DNA of 35,326 bases, taken from Candidatus Woesearchaeota archaeon CG1_02_57_44. Its GTDB lineage: Archaea > Nanobdellota > Nanobdellia > Woesearchaeales > CG1-02-57-44. The notes beneath the pieces are model-generated. The model was given only the letters and a program-made list of their open reading frames with translations. It was not told the origin of the DNA and ran no database searches. Positions 5,701-30,976 of the stretch are shown in pieces (position 1 is the first letter of the stretch; each line of letters starts with the position of its first letter). The stretch is from NCBI GenBank assembly GCA_001871415.1, contig MNWW01000036.1, positions 1 through 35,326 of the forward strand, read 5' to 3'. Made by a program: the position numbers and the translations under genes.

Positions 5701-6227
5701 AGAAGGTGAAGGTCGCGCAGCTGGGAGACTTCCTAGGCACTGATAGACAGTACATAGGTATGCGCTACACAAACACGGTGACGAGCGTCAACGCGGGTGT
5801 GCTCTGCAGCTCATACAAGACCCTGCCCAGTATGGAAGACAAGCTCAAAGGGCAAATGGGCCTGGCCGAGAAGCTCTGGAGCGTCGAGGCGAGTGATGTC
5901 GCGCGCCTGGTCATCGACAAGCATTTCATGAAGGATATCATCGGCAACCTGCGTCAGTTCAGCATGCAGAAGTTCCGCTGCGTGGACTGCAATGAGAAAT
6001 ATCGCAGGCCGCCGCTGGCAGGAAAGTGCAAGTGCGGCGGCAAGTTGTTGTTCACCGTGACCGAAGGGACTGTCATAAAATACCTGATCCCCAGCATCAG
6101 CCTTGCGCAGAAATACAACCTGCCGCCGTATTCGCAGCAGCGCCTGGAGATAGTGCGCGAGCGCGTCGAGTCCATGTTCGGCAGGAGCAGAGATAAGCAG
6201 GAAGCGCTCGGGAGATGGTTCGGGTGA
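2766..6227 (+). CDS. polC (DP2): DNA polymerase D large subunit DP2 (polymerase)
   Basis: This is the catalytic subunit of PolD, with a fold of the two-barrel RNA-polymerase type. The protein is about 1153 aa. The catalytic aspartates are D906 and D908 in DCDGDENCILLLLD. Zinc-binding cysteine clusters are at about 682-700 (CNTCGKV..CNLGC) and 1071-1095 (CVDC..CKCGG). No intein interrupts the catalytic motif, although DP2 is a common intein host. The last residues, QEALGRWF before a final G, form a PIP-box-like peptide for binding PCNA. The ATG at 2766 follows DP1 by 2 nt and has a weak GAGG 9 nt upstream; an upstream in-frame extension inside DP1 is rejected. Confidence 0.95.
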   Translation: MSVQSYFKALSEEVAMCYGIASSARAKGFDPDTKVEVHLARDMAERVEGLVGSVAPQIVGSGMTARIKELEKQYGEQDWRVALVIAAEVAKQSFCKFADEREAMEVGIRVGFAYHTVGVVAAPLEGFIELAIKQRRDGKAYLAAKYAGPVRGAGGTAAAVSVVIADYVGRQMGYAQYDPDDKETERMITELTDYHERVTNLQYKPSDDEIRYLVQHLPVEVDGDPTEQREVSNYKDLPRVATNRIRGGVCLVVSMIALKAPKLRTNMLSWGKDMGMDWSWLTDFEKIQKKAKAGKSAGKGGMLPDFTYIADLPAGRPVLGYPLRAGGFRLRYGRSRLSGFSAVGIHPATLQVLNDFIAVGTQLKTERPGKAASVTPCDSIEGPVVRLQDGSVLHLQDEAEAKRVAASVTDILFLGDMLISYGDFFDRGHPLIPAGYCEEWWFAELKGKAKQGDGLQAVAKALSCEERELRALGATIKNLDFNVSLALAASRWLGVLHPRMTHWWKLLDEPAWKALLEGLRKAKDAKEAINNEFSDIIVPYGSAFKAACEKARLPHKVQLNEFVIFSGADAAALRLLFLSPKGVLLDAQSLAQDPLAALSHTVQVRDKTGTFIGARMGRPEKAKMRRMTGSPHGLFPVGKEGGKMRSLQASLEKGAVTADFRAYLRDDGSASFFPGDGKPAMWCNTCGKVVLESCNLGCDLATHYRSSVPITEHFKQSLERLGMSSFPDLIKGVRGTMNADHEVEHVMKSILRAKHKVYVNKDGTTRYDMTELPITHFTPKEVGTSVARLRELGYTEDMDGTSLEHETQVLDLLPQDVILPVNTDTADCADEVLINIAGFIDDLLERMYGLEPYYNIKTREDLVGHLVIGLAPHISAGIIGRIVGFSGTQGCLAHPLWHAAQRRDCDGDENCILLLLDGLINFSRKFLPDRRGSRTMDAPLVLTDILVPSEVDDMVHKLDIAGEYPLELWQKGLLLESPKKVKVAQLGDFLGTDRQYIGMRYTNTVTSVNAGVLCSSYKTLPSMEDKLKGQMGLAEKLWSVEASDVARLVIDKHFMKDIIGNLRQFSMQKFRCVDCNEKYRRPPLAGKCKCGGKLLFTVTEGTVIKYLIPSISLAQKYNLPPYSQQRLEIVRERVESMFGRSRDKQEALGRWFG

Positions 6228-6279
6228 GGCGCGTCATACGACATTGCAGTCGGATGCACTACTGGATGGATGCGTAGGG

Positions 6280-6291
6280 TTCTCCGGAGAA
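6280..6291. other. Palindrome between convergent genes
   Basis: TTCTCCGGAGAA is a perfect 12-bp palindrome lying just outside the stop codon of the minus-strand acylphosphatase gene and about 50 nt after the polD stop. It could end transcripts or bind a protein. There is no clear T-tract, so the role is uncertain. Confidence 0.3.
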
Positions 6292-6292
6292 T

Positions 6293-6568
6293 TCAACCCT
6301 TCACCCAGAACCCTTCGTATTCGTCGTCGGGGACATCAATATACTCAACATCGACCTTGTCCACTTTCGCCAGCAGCGGCCCGACCTTGCAGAACTCGAT
6401 AAGCTGCTTGGCCTTGGCTTCATCGCCGCAGGCAAGCACCTCTACTGTCCCATCCCGTTTATTTTCCGCATACCCTGCGAGCCCAAGCTTCGCTGCCTTT
6501 TGCCGGGTCTCTTCGCGGTAGAACACGCCCTGCACTTTGCCGGACACTTTCAACCTGACCGCCTTCAT
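6293..6568 (-). CDS. acyP: Acylphosphatase
   Basis: This small 91-aa enzyme hydrolyses carboxyl-phosphate bonds such as acyl phosphates. The family signature is clear: GKVQGVFYRE at about 10-19 holds the phosphate loop and catalytic Arg, and GYAENKRDGTVEV at about 32-44 holds the catalytic Asn. Length and alpha/beta pattern are those of the family. It is the third gene of a three-gene unit after aIF2-beta; its ATG overlaps the preceding stop by 4 nt. It converges on the polD large-subunit gene. Confidence 0.93.
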   Translation of the reverse strand: MKAVRLKVSGKVQGVFYREETRQKAAKLGLAGYAENKRDGTVEVLACGDEAKAKQLIEFCKVGPLLAKVDKVDVEYIDVPDDEYEGFWVKG

Positions 6569-6852
6569 GCTTCCACCAGTATGGCATACGGGATGCCGTC
6601 TATCTTCTTGACGCTGGATAGGCCAATCTTCTCCTCTACTAGTGCGATTGTCTTCTCGCCAGCGACGATAGCGTGATGTGCGAGCTTCACAGCGGCGATG
6701 ATCTCATCAGGTGTCGCGTCAGCGCCTGCGAAGAATCCTGCGGAGAAATCCAGCACCTTGTCGTCTTCCTCAAAGCTCCTGCCCGCGAGCGCAGCGTCGA
6801 TGGCAGTGACCAATAGGCGCTTGCCCGGAAGCTCTTTTTTCGTGAGTCTCAT
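6565..6852 (-). CDS. Conserved-looking small protein of unknown function (95 aa)
   Basis: I do not recognise this protein. The start MRLTKKELPGK is chosen because its ATG overlaps the aIF2-beta stop by 4 nt (ATGA), and its own stop overlaps the acylphosphatase ATG in the same way. It is a soluble alpha/beta-type sequence without cysteines, membrane segments or a signal peptide. It has a charged N-terminus, a central acidic stretch EEDDKVLDFSAGFF, and a helical region DEIIAAVKLAHHAIVAGEKTIALVEEK. The tight translational coupling suggests it is made with aIF2-beta, but no function follows from that. Confidence 0.75.
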   Translation of the reverse strand: MRLTKKELPGKRLLVTAIDAALAGRSFEEDDKVLDFSAGFFAGADATPDEIIAAVKLAHHAIVAGEKTIALVEEKIGLSSVKKIDGIPYAILVEA

Positions 6853-7288: not shown

Positions 7289-7316
7289 CCTGCCGACATG
7301 CGCGTTCTCCACAAAC

Positions 7317-7324
7317 CTTTTATT
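7317..7324 (+). promoter_or_regulatory. TATA box of tyrS
   Basis: CTTTTATT is centred 26-27 nt before the tyrS ATG at 7347, consistent with a leaderless transcript. Confidence 0.55.
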
Positions 7325-7346
7325 CCCTCCACCCTTCCGTGAAGCC

Positions 7347-8399
7347 ATGGATACGCAATCACGCATGGACCTCATCAGGCAGGTGGGTGAGGAGATACTG
7401 ACGGAAGATGATCTGAAGGCGCTTCTGGACTCTAACGAGCATCCTATCGCCTATGACGGCTTTGAGCCCTCTGGCAAGGTGCACATAGCGCAAGGCGTCA
7501 TGCGCACCATAACCATCAACAAGATGCTCAAGGCGGGCTGCAAGTTCAAGATGCTGGTCGCGGACTGGCACGCATGGGCCAATAACAAGGTCGGCGGTGA
7601 TCTTGAGAATATACAGACTGTCGGCAACTACCTTATCGAGACCTGGAAGGCCGCGGGCATGGATACCGACAAGGTGGAGTTTGTCTGGGCCAATGATTTC
7701 ATGGCGGACAGAGACTATTGGAAGACCGTCATGAATGTCGCGCGTTCGAGCACGGTGAGTCGCATCCTGCGCTGCAGTCAGATAATGGGGCGCAAGGAAT
7801 CAGACGCACTGAACGCATCGCAGATATTTTATCCCTGCATGCAGGCAGCGGACATCTTCAAGCTCGATGTCGATATCTGCCAGCTGGGTCTTGACCAGCG
7901 CAAGGTCAATGTGCTGGCAAGAGAGCTTGCGCCAGGCCTTGGCTTCACCAAGCCCGTCGCCGTCCACCATCACATGCTCGCCGGATTGCACGAACCCAAG
8001 GGTGACGCGCTCGAGGCGAAGATGAGCAAGTCAAAGCCCGACTCCGCTATCTTCATGACCGATCCGGTAGAGGAGGTCGAGCGCAAGCTGAAAAAGGCCT
8101 TTTGCCCGGAGAAGCTGGTCGAGCAGAATCCTGTCATGGAATACTGCCGCTACATCCTGTTCGAGCGATTCCCGACCTTGGATATCGAGCGGCCAGAGAA
8201 GTTCGGTGGCGACATCTCCTATTCCTCCTACATGGAGCTTGAATTAGACTACACCGCAGGCAACCTGCATCCGGCAGATCTCAAGACCGCGGTGGCAAGG
8301 CAGCTCAATGAGCTGCTTGAGCCGGTGAGAAAGCACTTCGCCTCCGGCAGGCCAAAGGAGCTGCTCGAGCAGGTGCAATCATTCCAGGTAACGCGATGA
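7347..8399 (+). CDS. tyrS: Tyrosyl-tRNA synthetase
   Basis: This class I synthetase charges tRNA-Tyr with tyrosine. The HIGH-like motif is HIAQ in FEPSGKVHIAQGV (about 40-52) and the KMSKS loop is KMSKSKPDS (about 226-234). The N-terminal YDGFEPSGK stretch and the 350-aa length are those of archaeal TyrRS; the related TrpRS is the main alternative and is less likely. The Rossmann insertion WHAWANNKVGGDLENIQ is typical of the archaeal form. The ATG is about 27 nt after a TATA box. The M24 peptidase gene begins inside its stop codon (ATGA), so the two form an operon. Confidence 0.93.
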   Translation: MDTQSRMDLIRQVGEEILTEDDLKALLDSNEHPIAYDGFEPSGKVHIAQGVMRTITINKMLKAGCKFKMLVADWHAWANNKVGGDLENIQTVGNYLIETWKAAGMDTDKVEFVWANDFMADRDYWKTVMNVARSSTVSRILRCSQIMGRKESDALNASQIFYPCMQAADIFKLDVDICQLGLDQRKVNVLARELAPGLGFTKPVAVHHHMLAGLHEPKGDALEAKMSKSKPDSAIFMTDPVEEVERKLKKAFCPEKLVEQNPVMEYCRYILFERFPTLDIERPEKFGGDISYSSYMELELDYTAGNLHPADLKTAVARQLNELLEPVRKHFASGRPKELLEQVQSFQVTR

Positions 8400-9430
8400 A
8401 GCTGCCAAAGCAGGTCAGGGCTGCGTTGTTCATCTCGCGCGAGGACTGGAGGGACTACACGGTCCAATGGGCGACAGGCATCAGCGCAGGATTTGCTGCG
8501 CTGCTCGTCACGCAGCGCTCCAGGCGTCTGTTCTGCTCCCGCCACGAGATTAGTATGTTGCAGTCGCAGGTGAAGCCGGGCATCCGGCTCATCCCACTGA
8601 AGAAAGGCCAGCGTCTCACCGATGCCATCGGTGTCATCAACGGCCCGCTGGGTATCAATGCGACCTCTCTTTCCTACTCAACAGCGCGTGCCATACAGAG
8701 GTCCTGCAAGGCAAGGCTTATGGATATCAGCGCTGAGCTCGCGCTGCAACGCGAAGTCAAGACGCGAGAGGAGATAGCACTCATCGCCCGTTCCTGCGCC
8801 ATAGCGTCGCGTATCGTGGGCGAGGCGATGCGCCGGGCCAAGGGCAGGACCGAGCGGGAGCTGGCGCGCTTTCTGGTCGAGAGGGCGCAGGAGCTGGCCG
8901 ACGGCACGTCCTTTGATCCCATCGTGGCATCAGGCCCGAACGGCGCGAACCCGCATCACCTCCCGTCGGCAAGGAAGCTGCATGGCATGGTGGTTCTTGA
9001 CTTCGGCGTGCGTCACAAGGGCTATTGCTCTGATATCACCCGCACCTTCTGCGTGGGCAGGCAGCCCACAGGAAAGGAGCGTGAGGCCTACGACCGGGTG
9101 CTGGCAGCTGAGCTGGCAGGTGTGCGTGAGTGCGTCGCAGGCAATAACGCGAGCAAAGTCGTGACTGAAGCAGTAGAGCAACTAGGTGATATGGCGCCCT
9201 ATTTCATCCATCGCATCGGCCACAGCGTCGGCGTGGAGATTCACGACCCAAGCAGGACGCAGTTGCTTGAAGATTCCAAAGACCTGCTACAGGCGAACAG
9301 CACCTTCACGGTCGAGCCGGGCGTCTACTTCCCCAGCAGGTTCGGCATACGCATTGAGGACACGGTGCTGATAGGCGAGCGGCCCAAGCGCCTCACCACA
9401 GTGGGGAGGGAATTAGTTGTGGTGCGATAG
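8396..9430 (+). CDS. pepQ: M24-family metallopeptidase, Xaa-Pro aminopeptidase/dipeptidase type
   Basis: This cytosolic dinuclear metal peptidase releases amino acids next to proline. The C-terminal pita-bread domain holds all five metal ligands: D202 and D213 in LDFGVRHKGYCSDITRTF, H276 in HRIGHSVG, E307 in VEPGVYF and E321 in IRIEDTV. The N-terminal creatinase-like domain is short (about 120 aa). At 344 aa it matches small archaeal prolidase-like proteins; prolidase and aminopeptidase P activity cannot be separated from sequence alone. It is translationally coupled to tyrS by a 4-nt overlap. Confidence 0.9.
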   Translation: MKLPKQVRAALFISREDWRDYTVQWATGISAGFAALLVTQRSRRLFCSRHEISMLQSQVKPGIRLIPLKKGQRLTDAIGVINGPLGINATSLSYSTARAIQRSCKARLMDISAELALQREVKTREEIALIARSCAIASRIVGEAMRRAKGRTERELARFLVERAQELADGTSFDPIVASGPNGANPHHLPSARKLHGMVVLDFGVRHKGYCSDITRTFCVGRQPTGKEREAYDRVLAAELAGVRECVAGNNASKVVTEAVEQLGDMAPYFIHRIGHSVGVEIHDPSRTQLLEDSKDLLQANSTFTVEPGVYFPSRFGIRIEDTVLIGERPKRLTTVGRELVVVR

Positions 9431-9472
9431 TGGTGGGGATTTCTTTACTGATTTCCTAGTTGAATCTTTCTG

Positions 9473-9487
9473 GTGATATCTTATCAC
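9473..9487. other. Small palindrome in the 3' intergenic region
   Basis: GTGATA-TCT-TATCAC is a perfect 6-bp inverted repeat between the convergent pepQ and antitoxin genes. The surrounding sequence is A+T-rich with T-runs and may hold transcript ends for both genes. No gene is seen in 9431-9533. Confidence 0.3.
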
Positions 9488-9533
9488 GAATGAATTGTCT
9501 GTCGTCTGTTGTATTCATTTGACTCCCATAACT

Positions 9534-9833
9534 TCACACCTTCACGACTTTTATTCCATCTCCTTCGACCGTGATGCTCACATCCTCGCCCTGCTCCAGG
9601 TTGAGCGCCATCTCGATGTCTTTCGGGAGCCGAAGGATGAGGTTGCTGCGAATCCTCCCTAATTTTGCCTTGACTGATTGCTTCTTCAATGTATTGAGCA
9701 ATAGGATGCGCTGCGCTTGCTCTGGTTCATAATATTTCTCTCCGCACGTGCAGACCCATCCGTCCACGGTGTACTCATTGAACCTGATTCCTTTCTGGGG
9801 TTTCATGGTCTTATCGCAGTTGGGGCATTTCAT
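9534..9833 (-). CDS. Putative antitoxin: zinc-finger N-terminus plus AbrB-like C-terminus
   Basis: The 99-aa protein begins with a YgiT/MqsA-like zinc finger (C3-x2-C6 and C28-x-C30) and ends with a SpoVT/AbrB-type swapped-hairpin region (about 57-99), with RIRSNLILRLPKDIEMALNLEQGEDVSI resembling AbrB DNA-binding sequences. It starts 5 nt after the putative toxin gene, the gene order of mqsRA modules. The expected role is to neutralise the toxin and repress their shared promoter. The function is inferred from domain type and gene pairing. Confidence 0.7.
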   Translation of the reverse strand: MKCPNCDKTMKPQKGIRFNEYTVDGWVCTCGEKYYEPEQAQRILLLNTLKKQSVKAKLGRIRSNLILRLPKDIEMALNLEQGEDVSITVEGDGIKVVKV

Positions 9834-9838
9834 GGTGT

Positions 9839-10108
9839 TTACCTTTTTGTGAATTTTCCGAAGTGTGTGAGCAACCAGATCTCTTCATCATTCGCTACAG
9901 TATATGACTTCACTACTACTGCATTATACGTCTTTTTCCCTTTGTCAAGCCATTTCTCGACAGTCCCTCTTTTTCTCTTCCGTGGGGCATTATGACCGTC
10001 CTCAAGCACTTCGACGACGTCAGAAAGGATTAGGCCTTCTTTCATCAGCTCGCGCATGGCAGCATCGCTGGGCGCGATGCGCAGTCCGTCATATGTTTCA
10101 TCAAACAT
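9839..10108 (-). CDS. Putative toxin, DUF4258/RelE-like small protein
   Basis: The 89-aa protein is small, basic and mixed alpha/beta. Its pattern is that of DUF4258 or RelE-superfamily toxins: a first helix AMRELMKEGLILSDVVEVLEDG, a basic loop RKRKRGTVEKWLDKGKK, then strands YNAVVVKSYTV and EEIWLLTHF. DUF4258 proteins are often paired with YgiT-type zinc-finger antitoxins, as here. I cannot identify catalytic residues, so toxicity is an inference. It is the first gene of the pair, and its start codon lies in an inverted repeat (10092-10109). Confidence 0.65.
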   Translation of the reverse strand: MFDETYDGLRIAPSDAAMRELMKEGLILSDVVEVLEDGHNAPRKRKRGTVEKWLDKGKKTYNAVVVKSYTVANDEEIWLLTHFGKFTKR

Positions 10109-10109
10109 A
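10092..10109. promoter_or_regulatory. Inverted repeat spanning the toxin start codon
   Basis: TATGTTT-CATC-AAACATA is a perfect 7-bp inverted repeat with a 4-nt spacer. On the minus strand the toxin ATG lies in the first arm. It could be an operator or an mRNA hairpin that hides the start codon. Confidence 0.5.
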
Positions 10110-10117
10110 CTGTATCA

Positions 10118-10139
10118 ACATATGTAATAAACATATGTT
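10118..10139. promoter_or_regulatory. Two ACATATGT palindromes in the toxin-antitoxin promoter
   Basis: ACATATGT occurs at 10118-10125 and 10131-10138, 13 bp apart, the second extended to AACATATGTT. They overlap or abut A+T-rich candidates for the TATA box of the minus-strand pair (around 10124-10131 and 10137-10146). This is the layout expected for autorepression by the antitoxin or complex. Confidence 0.5.
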
Positions 10140-10169
10140 AATAAACTTTGCTATGCTCCACCACAACCC

Positions 10170-10177
10170 CTTTAAAC
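10170..10177 (+). promoter_or_regulatory. TATA box of the nucleoside phosphorylase gene
   Basis: CTTTAAAC-like sequence with TTTAAA at 10171-10176, centred 26-27 nt before the ATG at 10200. Confidence 0.5.
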
Positions 10178-10199
10178 CCCTCCCCCAACCACTCCTCTC

Positions 10200-10946
10200 A
10201 TGCCCTACCCCAACTATCCTGGCAAGGACAAGGAGCCGGCGCTCTTCAATGCCAAGGAATTCATCACCTGGCGTAACTACCTCAAGCGTGACTATCGTGA
10301 TGCGCCGAAGAAATACATCATCATCTACTATCCGAACATCCTGCGCCACTTCAGGAAGAACCGTGAGACAAAGAAGATTCGATTATATCGATTAGTGTCC
10401 ATCCACCAGTACCTCGATGTCGGCGTGGTCATGATGACGGGCATCGGTTCGCCCAATGCTGCTGTGGCCATGGAAGAGCTCATCGCGCTCGGTGGCGAAT
10501 ATTTCATCAACATCGGTAGTGCGGGCGGCTTGGAGTCGTTCGGCACGTATCTCTGCGAGAAATCTTTGCGCGACGAGGGAACCAGCCATCATTACCTGCC
10601 GGACGCTGAGTTTGCCTACCCGGACAAGGAGCTCACGTTGCGTCTGCAGCAATCCATGCAGCATCAGGATATCACATTCCAGATAGCGCCGTCCTGGACC
10701 ATCGACGCTCCGTACCGTGAGACCAAGGCAGAGATACAGCGTTACCGCAGGAAAGGTATCAAGACCGTGGAGATGGAATCTGCAGCGATATTCGCCGTGG
10801 CGAGAGCAAGAAAAGTCCAAGCCGCGGCGGCTTTCGTAGTCACGGACCTGGTGAGCAAGGACACCTGGCAGCCGAAGTTTCGCGCCCGTTCGGTCAATAA
10901 GGCGCTCTATGCGCTGTTTGATGCCGCGTTGACGAGCCTGTTGTGA
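10200..10946 (+). CDS. Nucleoside phosphorylase (purine nucleoside/uridine phosphorylase family)
   Basis: The enzyme cleaves a nucleoside with phosphate into base and ribose-1-phosphate for salvage. Family marks are MMTGIGSPNAAVAMEELIALG near 78-98, INIGSAGGL at about 104-112, the TIDAPYRET stretch, and the substrate-binding VEMESAAIFAVA near 195-206 followed by VVTDLV. The VEMES motif contacts ribose in this family. At 248 aa it has the usual length. Purine versus uridine preference cannot be read with confidence. The start follows its own TATA box, divergent from the toxin-antitoxin pair. Confidence 0.87.
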   Translation: MPYPNYPGKDKEPALFNAKEFITWRNYLKRDYRDAPKKYIIIYYPNILRHFRKNRETKKIRLYRLVSIHQYLDVGVVMMTGIGSPNAAVAMEELIALGGEYFINIGSAGGLESFGTYLCEKSLRDEGTSHHYLPDAEFAYPDKELTLRLQQSMQHQDITFQIAPSWTIDAPYRETKAEIQRYRRKGIKTVEMESAAIFAVARARKVQAAAAFVVTDLVSKDTWQPKFRARSVNKALYALFDAALTSLL

Positions 10947-11000
10947 GAGTGTCTATCCTTTGCGGTTGCTATGGGCATTCTACTAGAACTTCCCGAAACC

Positions 11001-11008
11001 CTTAATAA
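11001..11008 (+). promoter_or_regulatory. TATA box of tldD
   Basis: CTTAATAA is centred 26-27 nt before the ATG at 11031, which selects that start over an in-frame upstream start at 10971. Confidence 0.55.
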
Positions 11009-11030
11009 CCCCCAACGAAAAGACAATGCT

Positions 11031-12425
11031 ATGCACGATCTTCCAGAATGGCTGATTAACGAAGCGACCAAGCGCGGCGCGTCCTACGCAGAGGCACGCT
11101 ATGAGAAGGTCAAGGCGTCAGCTTTCCTGCTCAAGAACGGCGAAGCCGAGCTCGGGCATCTGGACGAGTCCGAAGGCGTCAGTGTCAAGCTGATAGCGGG
11201 CGGCAAGGCGTTCTTCTCCACGCGCACGCTCACAAAGGACAATTGCTCGCGCTTGCTGGACAACGCGCTGCGCATGGCGCAGAAGGCGAAGGTCGATATC
11301 AAGCTTTCAGAAGAACAACCTGTTTCAATCAAATGGGAAGTGCCTGCGAAAAAGCCGATAGCGGACATGGATGTCGCTGACAAGCTCTCCTACCTCAAGG
11401 ATCTTGACAAGCTTATCGTAAGCAAGGGGGATGTGCCAGGCAGGTATCTCTCGCTCACCGACGCCCACACAGAGAAGCTCATTCTCACCAGCGACGGAGG
11501 AAAGGTCGAGTGCGTAACGCCGTCGGTCAATATGCTCTATCACATGACCGTGCAGGTAGAGGAGAAGACCGCGCAGCGCTTCTGGCAGTACGCGGGCAGC
11601 GCAGGCTATGAACTCCTTGACGAATGGGACCTGCAGCAAATTCTCAGCGACGAGGTCACCTCCATGACGCGAGCGCTCACCAAAGGCGAGCGCCCACCGC
11701 AAGGCAAGCTTGACCTGGTGGCTGCGCCGCAGGTCGTGGGCATCATGTGCCATGAGAGCGTCGGGCATCCGACCGAGGCGGACCGCATCCTGGGCTTTGA
11801 GGCCGCGCAGGCAGGCAAGTCATTTATAACGCAGGAGAAACTCGACACGCGCATAGGATCCGACGCGATAACCATCGTCGACGATCCAACAGTCTCTAAC
11901 TCATTCGGCTACTACCAGGCCGACGATGAGTGCATGCCGGCAAGGCGCAGATACCTCTACAAGCAGGGCATCATCACTGACCTGCTGCACAACCGCGAGA
12001 CAGCAGCATTGATGGATACGACAACCACTGCATCTGCCCGCGCCTCAGCGGTCGACCGCGAGAGCATGGTGCGCATGGCCAATACCTTCCTGCTCGAGGG
12101 AGATAATTCCGAAGAGGAGCTCATCGAAGGTGTCAGCAAAGGTGTCTTCATGCGCAACTTCATGGAATGGAACATCGATGACTCCCGCCTGAACCAGAAG
12201 TATGTGGGCATGGACGCATGGCTCATCGAGGACGGTGAGCTCACCAAGCCGCTCCTCAACCCATCGCTGGAGATAACCACCCCGCAGCTCTGGTCAAGTG
12301 TCGACGCTGTCGCGAACAACACGGAATTCCATGCAGGAACGTGCGGCAAGGGCGAGCCCATGCAGGCGATTCCGGTCTGGATGGGCGGCCCGAGTATGCG
12401 CCTTCGCCAGGTGATGCTCAAATGA
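11031..12425 (+). CDS. tldD: TldD metalloprotease subunit
   Basis: TldD is the catalytic half of the TldD/TldE heterodimer, which degrades unfolded peptides in its inner chamber and processes some modified peptides in bacteria. The metal motif HExxxH is HESVGH at residues 241-246, within IMCHESVGHPTEADRILG. The 464-aa length fits the family. I start at ATG 11031 (MHDLPEW) because it lies the standard leaderless distance after a TATA box. The partner gene tldE overlaps its stop codon (ATGA), so subunits are made together. The neighbouring PAN suggests a local protein-turnover theme. Confidence 0.92.
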   Translation: MHDLPEWLINEATKRGASYAEARYEKVKASAFLLKNGEAELGHLDESEGVSVKLIAGGKAFFSTRTLTKDNCSRLLDNALRMAQKAKVDIKLSEEQPVSIKWEVPAKKPIADMDVADKLSYLKDLDKLIVSKGDVPGRYLSLTDAHTEKLILTSDGGKVECVTPSVNMLYHMTVQVEEKTAQRFWQYAGSAGYELLDEWDLQQILSDEVTSMTRALTKGERPPQGKLDLVAAPQVVGIMCHESVGHPTEADRILGFEAAQAGKSFITQEKLDTRIGSDAITIVDDPTVSNSFGYYQADDECMPARRRYLYKQGIITDLLHNRETAALMDTTTTASARASAVDRESMVRMANTFLLEGDNSEEELIEGVSKGVFMRNFMEWNIDDSRLNQKYVGMDAWLIEDGELTKPLLNPSLEITTPQLWSSVDAVANNTEFHAGTCGKGEPMQAIPVWMGGPSMRLRQVMLK

Positions 12426-13717
12426 ATCATATTGCGCTCCTGCAGGCGAAAGGTGCGACCGATGTCATTGTCACTAACCACGATTTTACCTTGACCCAAG
12501 TCAAGTTCGCCAACAGCAGCATCTTGACGGCAAAGACCTGGGACAGCAATGATCTGGAGCTCTTCGCAGTATTCGGCAAGAAGATGAGCGCGACGACGCT
12601 CCAGAATCCTGCGGCGATTCCGCTTGCAGCAGACGCTATGGCGTCGCTCGCCAAGCATATGCCGGACAATCCGATGTACGATGGCATAGCGAAGGCGCCG
12701 CAGACCTATGCGAAAGTCGATGGCCTCTATGACCCTGCGATCATCGACGCCGATGTCATGGATATGGTGCATGAGCAACTCAATCTCGCCCAGGAACTGC
12801 TGCCTGGTTGCCAGTGCGCTGGCGTGCTGGAGCTCGCCAACGGAACAGAGCACATCGAAAGTTCTGGCGGCATTGATGTCCAAGACAAGGGTACCACTAT
12901 CTATTTTTCCATGCGTGTGATGAAGGGCGATGCGTCAGGGCATATGGTGACCGCGGGTCGTTCATTTAAGACCGACCTTGCCAAAGCGACATCATTCGCG
13001 GCCGATGTCGCACGTACAGCAGCAGCCCTCCCCGTCCGAAAGCTAAAACCAGGACCCTACCAGACCCTCCTTGCACCACTCCCGGCAGCAAACCTCCTGG
13101 ACCATGTAGGTTCAGCCACTTCGATGTTCCATGTGGAAAGCCAGATGAGTCATCTCGGTGGCAAGCTGGGAAAACAAGTCGCAAGTCCGATATTCACGCT
13201 GAGTGATTGCCCGCACCTATCAGATGGCTATCATAGTACGGCAGTTGATGAAGAGGGTCAGGCAACGGCAGACAAGACCTTGATAGAGAATGGCGTCCTG
13301 AAGCGCTATCTGCATAACACCAGCACCGCGAAGCGCAACAATGGCGAGCCAGGCAACGCCGGTCTGATAGCGCCAGAGCCATTCAATATGGTCGTAGACC
13401 CAGGTGAGCATACTGAGGAAGAACTCCGGCAGGAAGCGCAGCTCTACATGACCAATGTCTGGTACACACGTTTTCAGAACATGGCCACAGGTGACTTCTC
13501 CACCATCCCCCGCGATGGCTGTTTTATCATGGAAAAAGGCGAGCCAGTTGCTACCGTCAAGAACATCCGGGTGACCGAGAACCTGCAAGGCGTCTTTGAA
13601 CGCATCGAGGCTCTGGGGAAGGAGCGCGTGCAGGTGCGTGGTTGGGAGGTCGAGACTCCTTGTGTATTGCCCCAGATATTGGCTAAAGATTTAAATATCT
13701 CAGCTCCTTTTTCCTGA
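12422..13717 (+). CDS. tldE/pmbA: TldE/PmbA subunit
   Basis: This is the partner subunit of TldD: homologous in fold, but it lacks the HExxxH metal site, and none is seen here. The 431-aa protein starts at the ATG overlapping the tldD stop by 4 nt. Conserved-looking stretches are the ESSGGIDVQDKGT region and the C-terminal FNMVVDPGEHTEEEL and GDFSTIPRDGCFIMEKGEPV. The genetic coupling supports a heterodimeric protease. The PAN promoter lies inside its last codons. Confidence 0.92.
   Translation: MNHIALLQAKGATDVIVTNHDFTLTQVKFANSSILTAKTWDSNDLELFAVFGKKMSATTLQNPAAIPLAADAMASLAKHMPDNPMYDGIAKAPQTYAKVDGLYDPAIIDADVMDMVHEQLNLAQELLPGCQCAGVLELANGTEHIESSGGIDVQDKGTTIYFSMRVMKGDASGHMVTAGRSFKTDLAKATSFAADVARTAAALPVRKLKPGPYQTLLAPLPAANLLDHVGSATSMFHVESQMSHLGGKLGKQVASPIFTLSDCPHLSDGYHSTAVDEEGQATADKTLIENGVLKRYLHNTSTAKRNNGEPGNAGLIAPEPFNMVVDPGEHTEEELRQEAQLYMTNVWYTRFQNMATGDFSTIPRDGCFIMEKGEPVATVKNIRVTENLQGVFERIEALGKERVQVRGWEVETPCVLPQILAKDLNISAPFS
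13690..13697 (+). promoter_or_regulatory. TATA-like box for pan inside the end of tldE
   Basis: TTTAAATA is centred about 24-25 nt before the ATG at 13718. PAN could therefore be transcribed on its own as well as by read-through. Confidence 0.45.
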
Positions 13718-22977: not shown

Positions 22978-23196
22978 TCAATCCTTCTGTGTCACCGACG
23001 AGAGCGCAAGCGCGACATCTTCCGCCTGCACCGTGCGCCGGCCTGCGTGCAGGGCGAGCGACGAGGATTTCTCAGCGACCTTTCTGCCAACAGCGACGAG
23101 ATGCGCCGCCATGGCAGCTTTCGCGTCTTCGCCTACGCGTATGCCTGGATGCGCTTCCTTGATGAACGCTTCCATTGCGTGAAGGCTTGGTTTCAT
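22978..23196 (-). CDS. Archaeal histone
   Basis: This 72-aa histone-fold protein wraps DNA. The fold is recognisable from the N-terminal helix (about 5-13), the central helix VGEDAKAAMAAHLVAVGRKV and the motif GRRTVQAEDVALAL at about 52-65, matching the RTVKAEDI-type motif of archaeal histones. It has no long tail. It is leaderless, with a TATA box about 28 nt upstream. Its promoter shares the 143-bp region with the divergent sigma-like gene. Confidence 0.93.
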   Translation of the reverse strand: MKPSLHAMEAFIKEAHPGIRVGEDAKAAMAAHLVAVGRKVAEKSSSLALHAGRRTVQAEDVALALSSVTQKD

Positions 23197-23220
23197 GTTG
23201 GTGTGGTCGGTGCAGGGGGT

Positions 23221-23228
23221 ATTTTAAG
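23221..23228 (-). promoter_or_regulatory. TATA box of the histone gene
   Basis: On the minus strand CTTAAAAT, centred about 28 nt before the ATG at 23196. TGCAGGGGGTAT at 23211-23222 overlaps it and resembles the 11-bp repeat at the sigma-like promoter. Confidence 0.5.
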
Positions 23229-23284
23229 GTTCGTGCCACAGAGCGAGGGAACGGGGGCAGGTGCTGGCGCATCATGGCGTGTCC

Positions 23285-23306
23285 TGCAGGGTGATTGCAG
23301 GGTGAT
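23285..23306 (+). promoter_or_regulatory. Perfect 11-bp tandem repeat upstream of the sigma-like gene
   Basis: TGCAGGGTGAT occurs twice in direct tandem (23285-23295 and 23296-23306), ending 3 nt before the TATA box. One repeat spans about one helical turn, so a dimer or two monomers could bind one face of the DNA. The position suits an activator or a repressor competing with TFB. Confidence 0.6.
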
Positions 23307-23309
23307 AAT

Positions 23310-23318
23310 ACTTTTAAG
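23310..23318 (+). promoter_or_regulatory. TATA box of the sigma-like gene
   Basis: ACTTTTAAG is centred 27 nt before the ATG at 23341, fixing that start. Confidence 0.6.
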
Positions 23319-23340
23319 TGGACCAGTTATTCCCTTGCTG

Positions 23341-24657
23341 ATGGCTCCGGGCATGGACTCCTCTCACGTGGATCAGATGCAGGGGTTTCTGCATTTTCTG
23401 GCAGGCCGGATCGCGAGATCAGATGCGTATCTGTTCCAGGATCTGGTCTCCGCAGGGACGCTCGCCATCCTCGAGCATGGGGGCGAATATGAGTCGTGGC
23501 GCAGCGTGTACAGGTCTGCCGACGGGCGAGCTGATGAGGAAGTGATGCTCACGCAGTTCTTCGTGCCTGTGGTGAGATATGCCATGCTTGACCAGTGCAG
23601 GGCCTGCAAGGCCCGGCCTCAATGGGGCGCAACCTTCCTCAGGGAGCAGGAGCAGGCGATGCTGGACATGGGCACATCAGATACCGCGGTAATCGCGATG
23701 CGCATGGGGCTCTCGCGTGATGAGTATCAAAGGCGCGCGCGGCTGGTTGATCCGTCTGGCACAGTATCCATCGACGATAGTGAGGCGGGCCTGCTGGATG
23801 TTGTGGGAGATGCAGATGCTGCGTATGATGCAGTCCTTGAGCACGACCAGGGCGCGCGGTATCTGCGCGGGCTCGATGCGCTGCCGGTGAGAGAGCGCAG
23901 GCTGCTCGTGGAGGTCGGTCTGAGGGGCCAGACCTTTGCCAGCATGGCGAGCAATATGAGGTTATCTCCGGGACGAGCCGACCAATTATACCAGCAAGCT
24001 AAAGACCGGATGCGTGAGCAGGTCGATGGCGCATCCAGCAGCAATGGCGCTTGCCATCATCCCAGTCTGCCCAGTTCGTTGGCGTACTCCTATGCGGGAT
24101 TCGATGAGTGGCATCCGGGTCCGGCGGCAAAAGACTTTTTCTGGCGACGGCCGATGGAATATTTCTCATCGATGATTGGCATTGATTTCTATCTTCAGCA
24201 CGCGACAAGGGACGCTTCGCTGTTGCGTCCCGCGGTCGTGGGGTACGCGGATCGTTTTGACCCCTTGGTGCATGGCACCATGGAGGCGCTGCTGCTTGAT
24301 GCGAATGGCGTCCGGGGCGAAGATGCGCGTGACGCAGTGACCGTCCATGCGAATCCGTATGGCAGGAACGATTCGTTCCTCAACATATTCGCGTTCGCAT
24401 TGGAGACCATAGCAGCGTATCAGCTCAATCCCTGGTGGCGGGGGGATGAGGCCGACGAGTCGCTCGGCCGGGCGCAGGCACTGGTGGAAGCCGTATTTGA
24501 GCGCTCAGCGCCAACAGAGGCGATAGTGCTCGCCAGCAGGCACTGCCTGGGTCTTGAGACTCGGGTGGCGGCATGGGCGCTTGGCATGCCGTATGATGCC
24601 GTGCGAAACGCAATGCTCGCCGCCCAGGACAAGGCGCAGGACTTGATGAGGGGCTGA
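23341..24657 (+). CDS. Sigma-28/FliA-like protein with extra C-terminal region
   Basis: The 438-aa protein has the order of parts of bacterial sigma-70-family factors, closest by eye to FliA. Region 2: FLAGRIARSDAYLFQDLVSAG (about 19-39), then RYAMLDQCRA at 79-88, compare RGAMLDELR in FliA. Region 3: VIAMRMGLSRDEYQ (117-130) and TVSIDDSE (141-148). Region 4: LDALPVRERRLLVEVGLRGQ (178-197) and the helix-turn-helix MASNMRLSPGRADQLYQQAKDRM (202-224). After a Ser-rich joint, residues 240-370 are unfamiliar. Residues 376-436 again resemble region 4 (LGLETRVAAWALGMPYDAVRNAMLAAQDKA). Archaea initiate transcription with TBP and TFB, and TBP is in this window, so the role is unknown. The start is set by the TATA box; an in-frame upstream extension through the histone gene is rejected. 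Confidence 0.8.
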   Translation: MAPGMDSSHVDQMQGFLHFLAGRIARSDAYLFQDLVSAGTLAILEHGGEYESWRSVYRSADGRADEEVMLTQFFVPVVRYAMLDQCRACKARPQWGATFLREQEQAMLDMGTSDTAVIAMRMGLSRDEYQRRARLVDPSGTVSIDDSEAGLLDVVGDADAAYDAVLEHDQGARYLRGLDALPVRERRLLVEVGLRGQTFASMASNMRLSPGRADQLYQQAKDRMREQVDGASSSNGACHHPSLPSSLAYSYAGFDEWHPGPAAKDFFWRRPMEYFSSMIGIDFYLQHATRDASLLRPAVVGYADRFDPLVHGTMEALLLDANGVRGEDARDAVTVHANPYGRNDSFLNIFAFALETIAAYQLNPWWRGDEADESLGRAQALVEAVFERSAPTEAIVLASRHCLGLETRVAAWALGMPYDAVRNAMLAAQDKAQDLMRG

Positions 24658-28062: not shown

Positions 28063-28153
28063 GCCTGCGTGGTAGTTTTCGCTATGCGCTGGCAGAGGCG
28101 TGACGCTGGTTCGCAAGGGTCTTTCGTCATGCTGCAATCGTATTTGGGGGTAT

Positions 28154-30169
28154 ATGATGGAGACTGGAGAACAGATAGGGTTATTCAAGGAGTTCTTTGA
28201 GCAGCAGTACTCCCTGGACCTTGCTGAGATACAGCGCCTGGGCAAGCGCCGCATGAGCGTCGACTTTGGCGCCATCGCGACCCACAGTGTTGAGCTGGCT
28301 GAGATGCTCATGGATCAGCCCGAGGAGGTCATCAAGGCCGCCGAGCTCGCTATCCAGGAAGTATTGGGGCTTGATGAGCCGGTGGTGGCTGTCCGCCTCA
28401 TCAATGTTCCTTACACGCAGAAGTACATGGTGCGCTCGGTGCGTGCAGAGCACATAGGGAGGCTCATCTATCTGGAAGGCATCATCAGGCAGAAGTCTGA
28501 TGTGCGCCCGCAGATGACACTCGCGCGCTTTGAGTGCCCTGCTTGCGGCAACGTGACCAGTATCCCGCAGACCGATACGACCCTGAAGGCCCCCGGGCGC
28601 TGCAGTTGCGGCTACAAAGGCACATTCAGGCAGGTGAGCAAGGAGCTCGTTGACGCGCAGAGCATTGTGTTAGAAGAATCCCCTGATGAGCTCGAAGGCG
28701 GCGAGCAGCCAAAAAGAATCAACCTCTTCCTGCGCTCAGACCTCGTGAGTCCATTGAGCGAGAAGCGGACCAACCCAGGAAGCCGTATCGGTGTGGTGGG
28801 CATCCTGAAGGAAAGTCCGCAGATGACGAAAGCAGGGCAGAAGAGCACGCGCTACGACATATTCTTCGATGTCAATAATATCATCCCGAAGGATGAGACT
28901 TTCGAGGACGTGAAGATAACTGACGAGGAGGAAGAGACCTTTCGCGAGCTGGCGGCAGACCCCCATCTCTGGGACCGTCTGGTGGCCTCCCTCGCTCCAA
29001 GCATCTACGGGCATGAGAAGGTCAAGTTGGCGCTGCTGTTGCAGATGTTCTCTGGCGTGCGAAAGCGTAGGGAGGGCGGTGTTGTCATCAGAGGTGACAT
29101 TCACGTCCTGCTGGTAGGTGATCCTGGGGCGGGAAAGAGTCAGCTCCTGCGCAGGGTCGCGGCTGTCGCGCCCAAGGCCCGCTACGTGGCAGGTAAGGGT
29201 GCGTCTGGTGCTGGCCTTACTGCGGCTGTGGTCAAGGATGAGTTCATTCGCGGCTGGGCGCTTGAGGCAGGAGCGCTGGTCCTCGCGAATGAAGGTATGT
29301 GCATGATTGACGAGCTTGACAAGATGAGTACGGAGGATAGAGACGCGATGCACGAGGCGCTTGAGCAACAGACCGTCAGCATCGCCAAGGCGAATATTCA
29401 GGCGACGCTGAGGGCTGAGACGACCGTGCTTGCGGCAGCCAACCCAAAGTACGGTCGCTTTGTCATAACCGAATCCCTGCCCGGGCAGGTGGACCTCATC
29501 CCGTCGCTGCTTTCGCGATTTGACCTGCTCTTCGCCATCAAGGACCTGCCGGATCCGGGGCGCGACGCGGAGATGGCAGGATTCATCCTGAACATGCACC
29601 GCACGACCAAGCATGAGAGCCCGGACATTCCCACTCCTGTCCTGAAAAAATACATCGCCTTTGCCAGACGGTTCCAGCCCAAGCTGACCGAGGCGGCCTT
29701 CAACGAGATTAAGGACTACTATGTCAGCATGCGCTCCAAGGGCCTGGAGGGCGAGACCAAGAGCGTCCCCATAACGCCGCGCCAGCTCGAGGCCCTGGTG
29801 CGATTGTCCGAGGCGGCGGCCAAGGCGCGCTTCTCTGACCTTGTCGAGCAGCAGGACGCGAAGATAGCAACTGACCTCGTGCAATACTACCTCAATGAGT
29901 TTGGCAGGGACTCGAGCACAGGCGTTGTGGATATCGACCGCATCATGACGGGAACGCCAGCGTCCCAGAGAAACAAGCTGCTCATTGTCCGAGACATCAT
30001 CCGCAACCTGCTCTCGCGCTCCGGCGAGAAGGAGGTCTTGGTTACTGACATCTACATGGAGGCGCAGGAGAAGAACCTGGGCGAGCAGGAGATAGACGAT
30101 CTGCTCGTGCAGCTCGAGCGCAAGGGCGACATCTGGAAGCCAAGCAAGAACAAAGTATCGACCATGTGA
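28154..30169 (+). CDS. mcm: MCM replicative helicase
   Basis: MCM is the hexameric helicase that unwinds DNA at the fork. The 671-aa protein has the N-terminal domain with a zinc site (CPACG near 128 and CSCG near 150), the OB and hairpin region, then the AAA+ core: Walker A GDPGAGKS (about 322-329), Walker B CMIDELDKM (about 383-391) and the arginine finger LLSRFDLLF (about 452). A C-terminal winged helix ends the protein. No intein is present. ATGs at 28154 and 28157 are both possible, with GGGGG just upstream. The neighbouring ORB-like sites and the RPA-like gene form a second replication cluster. Confidence 0.95.
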   Translation: MMETGEQIGLFKEFFEQQYSLDLAEIQRLGKRRMSVDFGAIATHSVELAEMLMDQPEEVIKAAELAIQEVLGLDEPVVAVRLINVPYTQKYMVRSVRAEHIGRLIYLEGIIRQKSDVRPQMTLARFECPACGNVTSIPQTDTTLKAPGRCSCGYKGTFRQVSKELVDAQSIVLEESPDELEGGEQPKRINLFLRSDLVSPLSEKRTNPGSRIGVVGILKESPQMTKAGQKSTRYDIFFDVNNIIPKDETFEDVKITDEEEETFRELAADPHLWDRLVASLAPSIYGHEKVKLALLLQMFSGVRKRREGGVVIRGDIHVLLVGDPGAGKSQLLRRVAAVAPKARYVAGKGASGAGLTAAVVKDEFIRGWALEAGALVLANEGMCMIDELDKMSTEDRDAMHEALEQQTVSIAKANIQATLRAETTVLAAANPKYGRFVITESLPGQVDLIPSLLSRFDLLFAIKDLPDPGRDAEMAGFILNMHRTTKHESPDIPTPVLKKYIAFARRFQPKLTEAAFNEIKDYYVSMRSKGLEGETKSVPITPRQLEALVRLSEAAAKARFSDLVEQQDAKIATDLVQYYLNEFGRDSSTGVVDIDRIMTGTPASQRNKLLIVRDIIRNLLSRSGEKEVLVTDIYMEAQEKNLGEQEIDDLLVQLERKGDIWKPSKNKVSTM

Positions 30170-30289
30170 GAGTTATGATGCGAACAGAAAAAGAATCCAT
30201 GATAGCGCGTGCGGCGTGTGCGCGAAGAGGGTCATCTTCTCCTTATTATCCTGCATCGCAACTACGATGCGGTCCCCATGGAGGCCATC

Positions 30290-30976
30290 ATGTCAGAGCA
30301 TGACGTGGACAGTCAACCCGCTGGAAGGCCGACGCAATTCACCTACCCTCCTGCGGTGCCATTGACCGCTGACATGTTTCTCGCAGCGCCGTTCATGCAA
30401 GGTCAGGACATGCAGCCCTCATGCCTGCGCATGAATGTGCCTGCCTATCGCGTCTCCCTGCTGGGTATGATAGTGCTCAGCCAGGACGGCGCTGCGATTC
30501 TCGACGACGGTACAGGGAGCGTGCCGTTGCGTGGTCTTTCCTTTGAGCCCAAGGTCGGCGACATCCTCAATGTCATCGGCAGGCCGCGCGAGTTCGGAGC
30601 CCGCCATTGCTCAGTGGAGATAATGAAAGTACTAGGCGACGCGCGCTGGATAAAAGTGCACCGTGCGAAGGCGCAGCTGCTGCGTATGCGCCCGGGCGAA
30701 GCGCCGCCTCCTGAGCCTGCCCAGGTGATTCCTGACGAGGTGCGCGAGGCCGCATCCGTGCCGCCAGAGTCATTGGACATGGGCGAGGCCGTGCTTGCTG
30801 CTATCAGGAAGCTGGACAAGGGCGAGGGCGCGTCGCTCACGGATGTGGTCGCGGCCGCGGTAGGCGCCGACCATTCCAGCACAAAGGCCGCAGAAGCAGA
30901 GCAGGCAGTGACAGACCTCACCAATGCCGGGGAGATCTTCGAGCTCGCGCCGGGACGGCTGAAGGTGCTGGAATGA
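30290..30976 (+). CDS. RPA32-like single-strand DNA-binding protein (OB fold plus winged helix)
   Basis: The 228-aa protein has the build of archaeal RPA2-type subunits: a flexible N-terminus, one OB fold (about 45-135, with YRVSLLGMIVLSQDGAAILDDGTGSVPL and VGDILNVIGRPREFG), a Pro-rich linker, and a C-terminal winged helix (about 165-228, AVLAAIRKLDKGEGASLTDVV to ELAPGRLKVLE). The expected role is binding ssDNA in replication and repair. The start at 30290 has GGAGG 5 nt upstream; ATG at 30278 is an alternative. No partner RPA41-like gene is in the window. It follows mcm on the same strand. Confidence 0.8.
   Translation: MSEHDVDSQPAGRPTQFTYPPAVPLTADMFLAAPFMQGQDMQPSCLRMNVPAYRVSLLGMIVLSQDGAAILDDGTGSVPLRGLSFEPKVGDILNVIGRPREFGARHCSVEIMKVLGDARWIKVHRAKAQLLRMRPGEAPPPEPAQVIPDEVREAASVPPESLDMGEAVLAAIRKLDKGEGASLTDVVAAAVGADHSSTKAAEAEQAVTDLTNAGEIFELAPGRLKVLE

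Follow-up and report, generated by a model that had tools for sequence, protein, structure and literature searches.

A very divergent sigma-28-type protein and its paralog encoded in the genome of a Woesearchaeota archaeon

To our knowledge, sigma factors are regarded as defining bacterial initiation factors and archaea as being without them, and a gene for a sigma-28/FliA-type protein in Candidatus Woesearchaeota archaeon CG1_02_57_44 raises the question whether that protein is a true family member and what it might do beside the archaeal transcription machinery. The window, i.e. the whole stretch of 35,326 nucleotides analysed here, is an entire contig (C8, 35 kb) of a 1.53 Mb genome estimated to be 82% complete and 0.1% contaminated. 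The gene for the divergent sigma-28-type protein (438 aa), recognised by profile searches, AlphaFold/Foldseek and a paralog-pair profile, occupies positions 23341..24657 of the + strand. All of the peptides quoted in a first-pass annotation of this DNA (RYAMLDQCRA, VSIDDSE and LPVRERRLL among them) were found in this reading frame in the order quoted, and the codon-position GC pattern in both halves of the 438-codon frame is that of a coding gene. The mechanical ORF start is GTG 23047; we prefer ATG 23341, because a TATA-like box lies upstream of it and the stretch 23047-23340 has a weaker, lower-scoring coding signal. This AT-rich box (CTTTTAAG, 23311-23318, + strand) is positioned ~26 nt 5' of ATG 23341, and its spacing would imply a leaderless archaeal transcript; an archaeal TATA box had been proposed for the gene, and, judged from the sequence, an archaeal promoter appears to drive its transcription. 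No sigma-70 promoter match was found on the + strand between 22900 and 24900, and no match to the consensus FliA promoter (TAAA-N15-GCCGATAA) within the window. Neighbours of the gene encode RNase Z, a small zinc-ribbon-like protein, citramalate synthase, TBP and MCM; no conserved operon partner was seen. The MCM gene and the gene following it (28100-30976 in the window) also lie near a sigma gene in a relative (locus L138, 11075-12963), but neither the sigma type nor the gene order is the same, and the proximity is perhaps due to chance.

Profile searches with the single sequence pointed modestly to a remote member of the sigma-70 family. The NCBIfam profile TIGR02937 (sigma70-ECF) matched residues 11-227 at E=2e-8, under its curated cut-off, and TIGR02479 (FliA_WhiG) matched residues 32-228 at E=3.6e-6 with 26.9 bits; the curated cut-off of the latter, 189.6 bits, is missed by the window protein as well as by its paralog on contig C53 (108.5 bits). 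Pfam detected region 4 at E=0.0012 and region 2 at E=0.08, both under the curated cut-offs, and the window protein alone found FliA in the PDB at E=0.017. With the two-row profile of the window protein and the C53 paralog, FliA (6pmi) became the best PDB match at E=3.4e-20 and the other 18 matches listed were sigma factors as well. The AlphaFold model has a mean pLDDT of 65.6, mostly 70-96 over the three sigma domains, and predicts the helices of regions 2, 3 and 4, with the region 2 and region 4 folds. A Foldseek search of the PDB with this model placed only sigma factors at the top of the list, at probability 1.00, with low TM-scores and large rmsd, the low TM-scores arising because the relative arrangement of the domains is not predicted. 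Because known sigmas were contained in the AlphaFold input alignment, the model does not count as evidence separate from the sequence match. Since the paralog-pair profile and the model add to the single-sequence scores, family membership is firm, and the earlier claim of a sigma-like protein in an archaeal genome is confirmed on profile matches and predicted structure: the protein is a genuine but very divergent member of the sigma-70 family. Neither of the outcomes named beforehand as refuting that claim, a lack of significant sigma matches or a structure without the region 2 and 4 folds, was obtained.

The domain layout follows the region order 2-3-4 of the sigma-28 proteins FliA and WhiG (E. 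coli FliA 6pmi, Aquifex 1rp3, Streptomyces WhiG 6pfv). On the + strand, region 2 was placed by alignment and AlphaFold at residues 7-92 (23359..23616), region 3 by profile, AlphaFold and alignment at residues 93-136 (23617..23748), and region 4 with its helix-turn-helix, shared with FliA/WhiG, at residues 167-231 (23839..24033), where pLDDT is mostly 88-96. A linker and a poorly predicted part of the C-terminal extension follow at residues 232-368 (24034..24444, pLDDT mostly <50), then a predicted C-terminal four-helix domain at residues 369-437 (24445..24651) that is common to the C53 paralog. Several archaeal proteins of the FliA clade carry a signature near RIRGAILDYLRSLDxVPRS, of which the window protein keeps a part, RYAMLDQCRA, that pairs with RGAMLDELRS of FliA. 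The FliA/WhiG subfamily supplies the closest profile and the tree neighbours; unlike its members, however, the window protein, which is ~20% identical to them, has lost the core-binding Gln, carries an ~18-residue insertion between regions 2.2 and 2.3, bears an extra 200-residue C-terminal part, and is encoded in an archaeal host behind a TATA-like promoter. It is the most divergent of the sigma proteins compared, and region 4 is its best-preserved part, by Pfam score and by model confidence. The region 2.2 motif reads DLVSAG, replacing DLIQEG/DLLQAG, and since the core-binding motif D-L-I-Q-E-G is thus not intact we file the protein by homology as a sigma-derived relative, not as a proven working sigma factor. 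By alignment, the counterparts are DAIDYV in the C53 paralog and DIAHRA in the sigma-like protein of contig C40, and the core-binding Gln is absent from all three sigma-like proteins of this genome. It is also absent from most archaeal FliA-type proteins, while many archaeal RpoD-type proteins retain Gln-Glu; Gln loss being usual among archaeal FliA-type proteins, it may not signify lost core binding.

In the data searched, the extra ~200 C-terminal residues are common to the two paralogs alone, and scans of 353 genomes of the order and of the viral and genome contig collections turned up no ortholog of the two-part protein. An hhalign comparison (E=0.024), the predicted four-helix end domain and the PhyR_sigma-like match of the C53 C-terminal part given below are no more than suggestive of a second sigma unit, and the four-helix domain is possibly a second, decayed region 4; a PDB profile search with the C-terminal half returned mostly chance matches. 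As these are hints, a second sigma unit is not claimed here. The C-terminal part of the C53 paralog weakly matches the region-4-like part of the PhyR sigma-like domain (PF22233), at 1.4e-5 for the whole protein and at 0.0017 (18.5 of 27 bits) for the C-terminal part alone, whereas the C-terminal part of the window protein gave no match to PF22233. In contrast to PhyR, there is no receiver domain, and the C53 match stays under the cut-off. A possible two-unit layout of DNA-binding helical domains recalls archaeal TFB by analogy only, but the window protein has no TFIIB-family match; a TFB-like protein, recognised by eye, is encoded elsewhere in the genome (locus L008).

A 35-row tree sets the window protein and its C53 paralog apart from the RpoD type and groups them with archaeal FliA-type proteins and E. 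coli FliA in a clade of ten rows (100/99). The branch of the window protein is 4.65 changes per column long and that of the C53 paralog is also very long, so the exact position of both is unsure, and the sigma-28/FliA-type ancestry proposed earlier is supported with caution. The FliA-type assignment and the archaeal context of the first-pass annotation thus held, but it had missed two further sigma-like genes, the C-terminal 200 residues, the Gln loss and the insertion. The genome holds three sigma-like genes, on the window contig, C53 and C40. The C53 paralog is an evident FliA-type sigma (FliA_WhiG E=3.9e-31) that aligns with the window protein by BLASTP at 5e-10 over residues 118-437, and the full two-part layout is present in both; the C40 protein is above the Pfam cut-offs for regions 2 and 4. 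At locus L058 (G000:C53), the paralog gene adjoins a gene that resembles family B DNA polymerases and has a PHROG match, the two genes occupying 8686-10359 and 10720-12804; an SRAP-domain gene lies farther along, and the neighbourhood is possibly a mobile element or a remnant of one. At locus L060 (G000:C40), the third sigma-like gene and rpo7 occupy 7307-8083 and 6205-6756 on one strand, the sigma-like gene being ~550 bp upstream.

The gene is real, but it is not an isolated case. At E<=1e-10, sigma genes were found in 99 of 353 genomes of the order (over a quarter), and in 59 of 180 when the same search was confined to good genomes; FliA_WhiG matches at 1e-3 occurred in 29 of 60 genomes of the order and in none of four archaeal control genomes, and sigma genes are also present in other orders of the same class. 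Sigma-70-family genes on DPANN archaeal chromosomes, among them those of Woesearchaeota (fam00359), were already described by Castelle et al. 2021 (PMC8204110), where mis-binning was excluded and no anti-sigma factors were found; archaeal sigma genes as a general phenomenon were therefore already known. A FliA-type pair with a C-terminal extension is not named in the part of that report considered here, and what we regard as new is this strongly modified FliA-derived pair, which the window gene adds to the archaeal sigma set, together with the single-polymerase, clamp-helix, TFE and promoter results below. Many relatives' sigmas are RpoD-type with near-canonical regions, some of them on large contigs of nearly complete genomes. 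Such proteins retain DLIQEGN, FSTYATWWIRQ and TRERIRQIE, and other sigmas of the order have an almost intact region 2.2 along with nearly unchanged melting aromatics and recognition helix; this conservation suggests binding to some RNA polymerase by the group as a whole.

Exactly one archaeal RNA polymerase largest subunit, RpoA', was found per genome in 29 genomes, 15 of which have strong sigma matches (PF04997 gave one match in 29 of 30 genomes and none in the remaining one). A second, bacterial RNA polymerase for the archaeal sigmas to serve was not found with PF04997 in those 29 genomes. Among 27 readable RpoA' rows, the clamp helices of sigma-bearing genomes did not differ systematically from those of genomes lacking sigma, and hence showed no sign of co-adaptation of the clamp to sigma. 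The general sequence pattern of the bacterial clamp helices is retained in archaea, and the residues of E. coli beta' at 275, 295 and 302, positions to which we ascribe a role in sigma binding, are replaced by others. TFE in archaea binds the same clamp region as sigma would; TFE-type matches were present in 54 of 60 genomes, the source genome included, which rules out sigma as a TFE replacement. Exact consensus sigma-70 sites (TTGACA-N16-18-TATAAT) numbered 142 against 116 for the control in the 99 sigma-bearing genomes, and 235 against 125 in 136 genomes without sigma, i.e. without a match at E<=1e-10 (136 of 254 such genomes, taken in list order); in this low-power test the sites were not enriched in sigma-bearing genomes and were, if anything, fewer. 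Many-sigma archaea with one archaeal-type RpoA', wherever found, offer a direct test of whether two initiation systems can share one enzyme.

The reading we favour, to which we give a little short of an even chance, is that the window protein is a sigma-28-derived DNA-binding regulator working beside TBP/TFB, with no classical holoenzyme contact or with an altered one. A chromosomal sigma-70-family protein derived from FliA/WhiG, which has diverged far from the bacterial form, would bind DNA through the region 4 helix-turn-helix, perhaps also through regions 2/3, and would modulate a small gene set that is still transcribed by the TBP/TFB/RNA polymerase machinery, while the classical sigma-core contact would be gone or made differently. 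In favour of this reading are the sigma homology by profile, structure and tree, the well-kept region 4, the loss of the Gln in all three sigma-like proteins of the genome, the one RpoA' per genome with a clamp that is alike with and without sigma and lacks the beta' 275/295/302 residues, the retained TFE and the TATA-like box upstream. No target genes or binding sites of the window protein were identified. Formation of a classical holoenzyme by the window protein is less likely, while a real initiation role for its near-canonical relatives is plausible, and their near-intact regions, which suggest that the group binds some RNA polymerase, speak against the regulator reading, as does the commonness of Gln loss among archaeal FliA-type proteins.

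The same relatives are an argument for a working alternative initiation factor that would dock on the clamp helices of the archaeal RNA polymerase and use its own promoters independently of TBP/TFB, since the conservation of their three motifs is hard to explain without polymerase and promoter binding, and both the bacterial-like pattern of the clamp helices and the single polymerase fit it; however, the clamp is the same with and without sigma, the consensus promoter is not enriched and the window protein itself is far off the canonical form, and we consider this role rather unlikely for it. A wider proposal, that the class runs sigma-based initiation on a single archaeal polymerase parallel to TBP/TFB, with the window pair as a tandem-domain version evolved in archaea, seems to us doubtful. 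The very long branch and the failure to find an ortholog in 353 genomes of the order would suit a gene gained by horizontal transfer that is now decaying and has no function, but the 438-codon frame is intact and coding-like in the codon pattern of its two halves, a TATA-like box is present and the diverged, full-length C53 paralog keeps an identical layout, and we find such decay improbable. A PhyR-like sigma mimic, in which the protein or its C-terminal domain would titrate a regulator of other sigma proteins and not be promoter-bound, would accord with the degraded region 2 and the PhyR_sigma-like match of the C53 paralog; yet the C-terminal similarity is weak, no anti-sigma gene was seen next to the window gene, no receiver domain was detected in its product and the earlier survey found no anti-sigma factors (PMC8204110), and we regard mimicry as quite improbable. 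Export of the protein as an effector that would target the RNA polymerase in a bacterial partner is far-fetched: no bacterial polymerase was found in the genome and a symbiotic life has been proposed for members of such lineages (PMC8204110), but nothing points to export or to a bacterial host and the window protein, too far from canonical, would be the wrong copy. Bacterial contamination or a binning error, for which only the bacterial family name speaks, has a negligible chance and is already refuted in practice by a 35-kb contig with TBP, MCM and archaeal-type genes, the contamination figure of 0.1% and sigma genes on large contigs of nearly complete related genomes, as the first-pass annotation had expected from the archaeal neighbours.

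Furthermore, a small conserved protein with a GDSRDVVVD-like motif is encoded near sigma genes of three genomes, at L095 (3490-4077), L098 (5425-5877) and L103 (2188-2805), with no Pfam match above cut-off in the two copies scanned. In three genomes (L129, L131, L139), a sigma gene has a GHKL-type ATPase-like gene nearby on its own strand; two of these were identified by Pfam as HATPase_c_3 and the L131 copy by BLAST similarity only. Some bacterial anti-sigma factors are GHKL proteins, which makes these genes a lead for a regulator and possible anti-sigma partners. Moreover, sigma genes stand in tandem arrays of two or three at L142, L137 and L131, and a single open frame at L136 (4695-9347) encodes a protein of 1550 aa in which sigma region 2 is matched three times.
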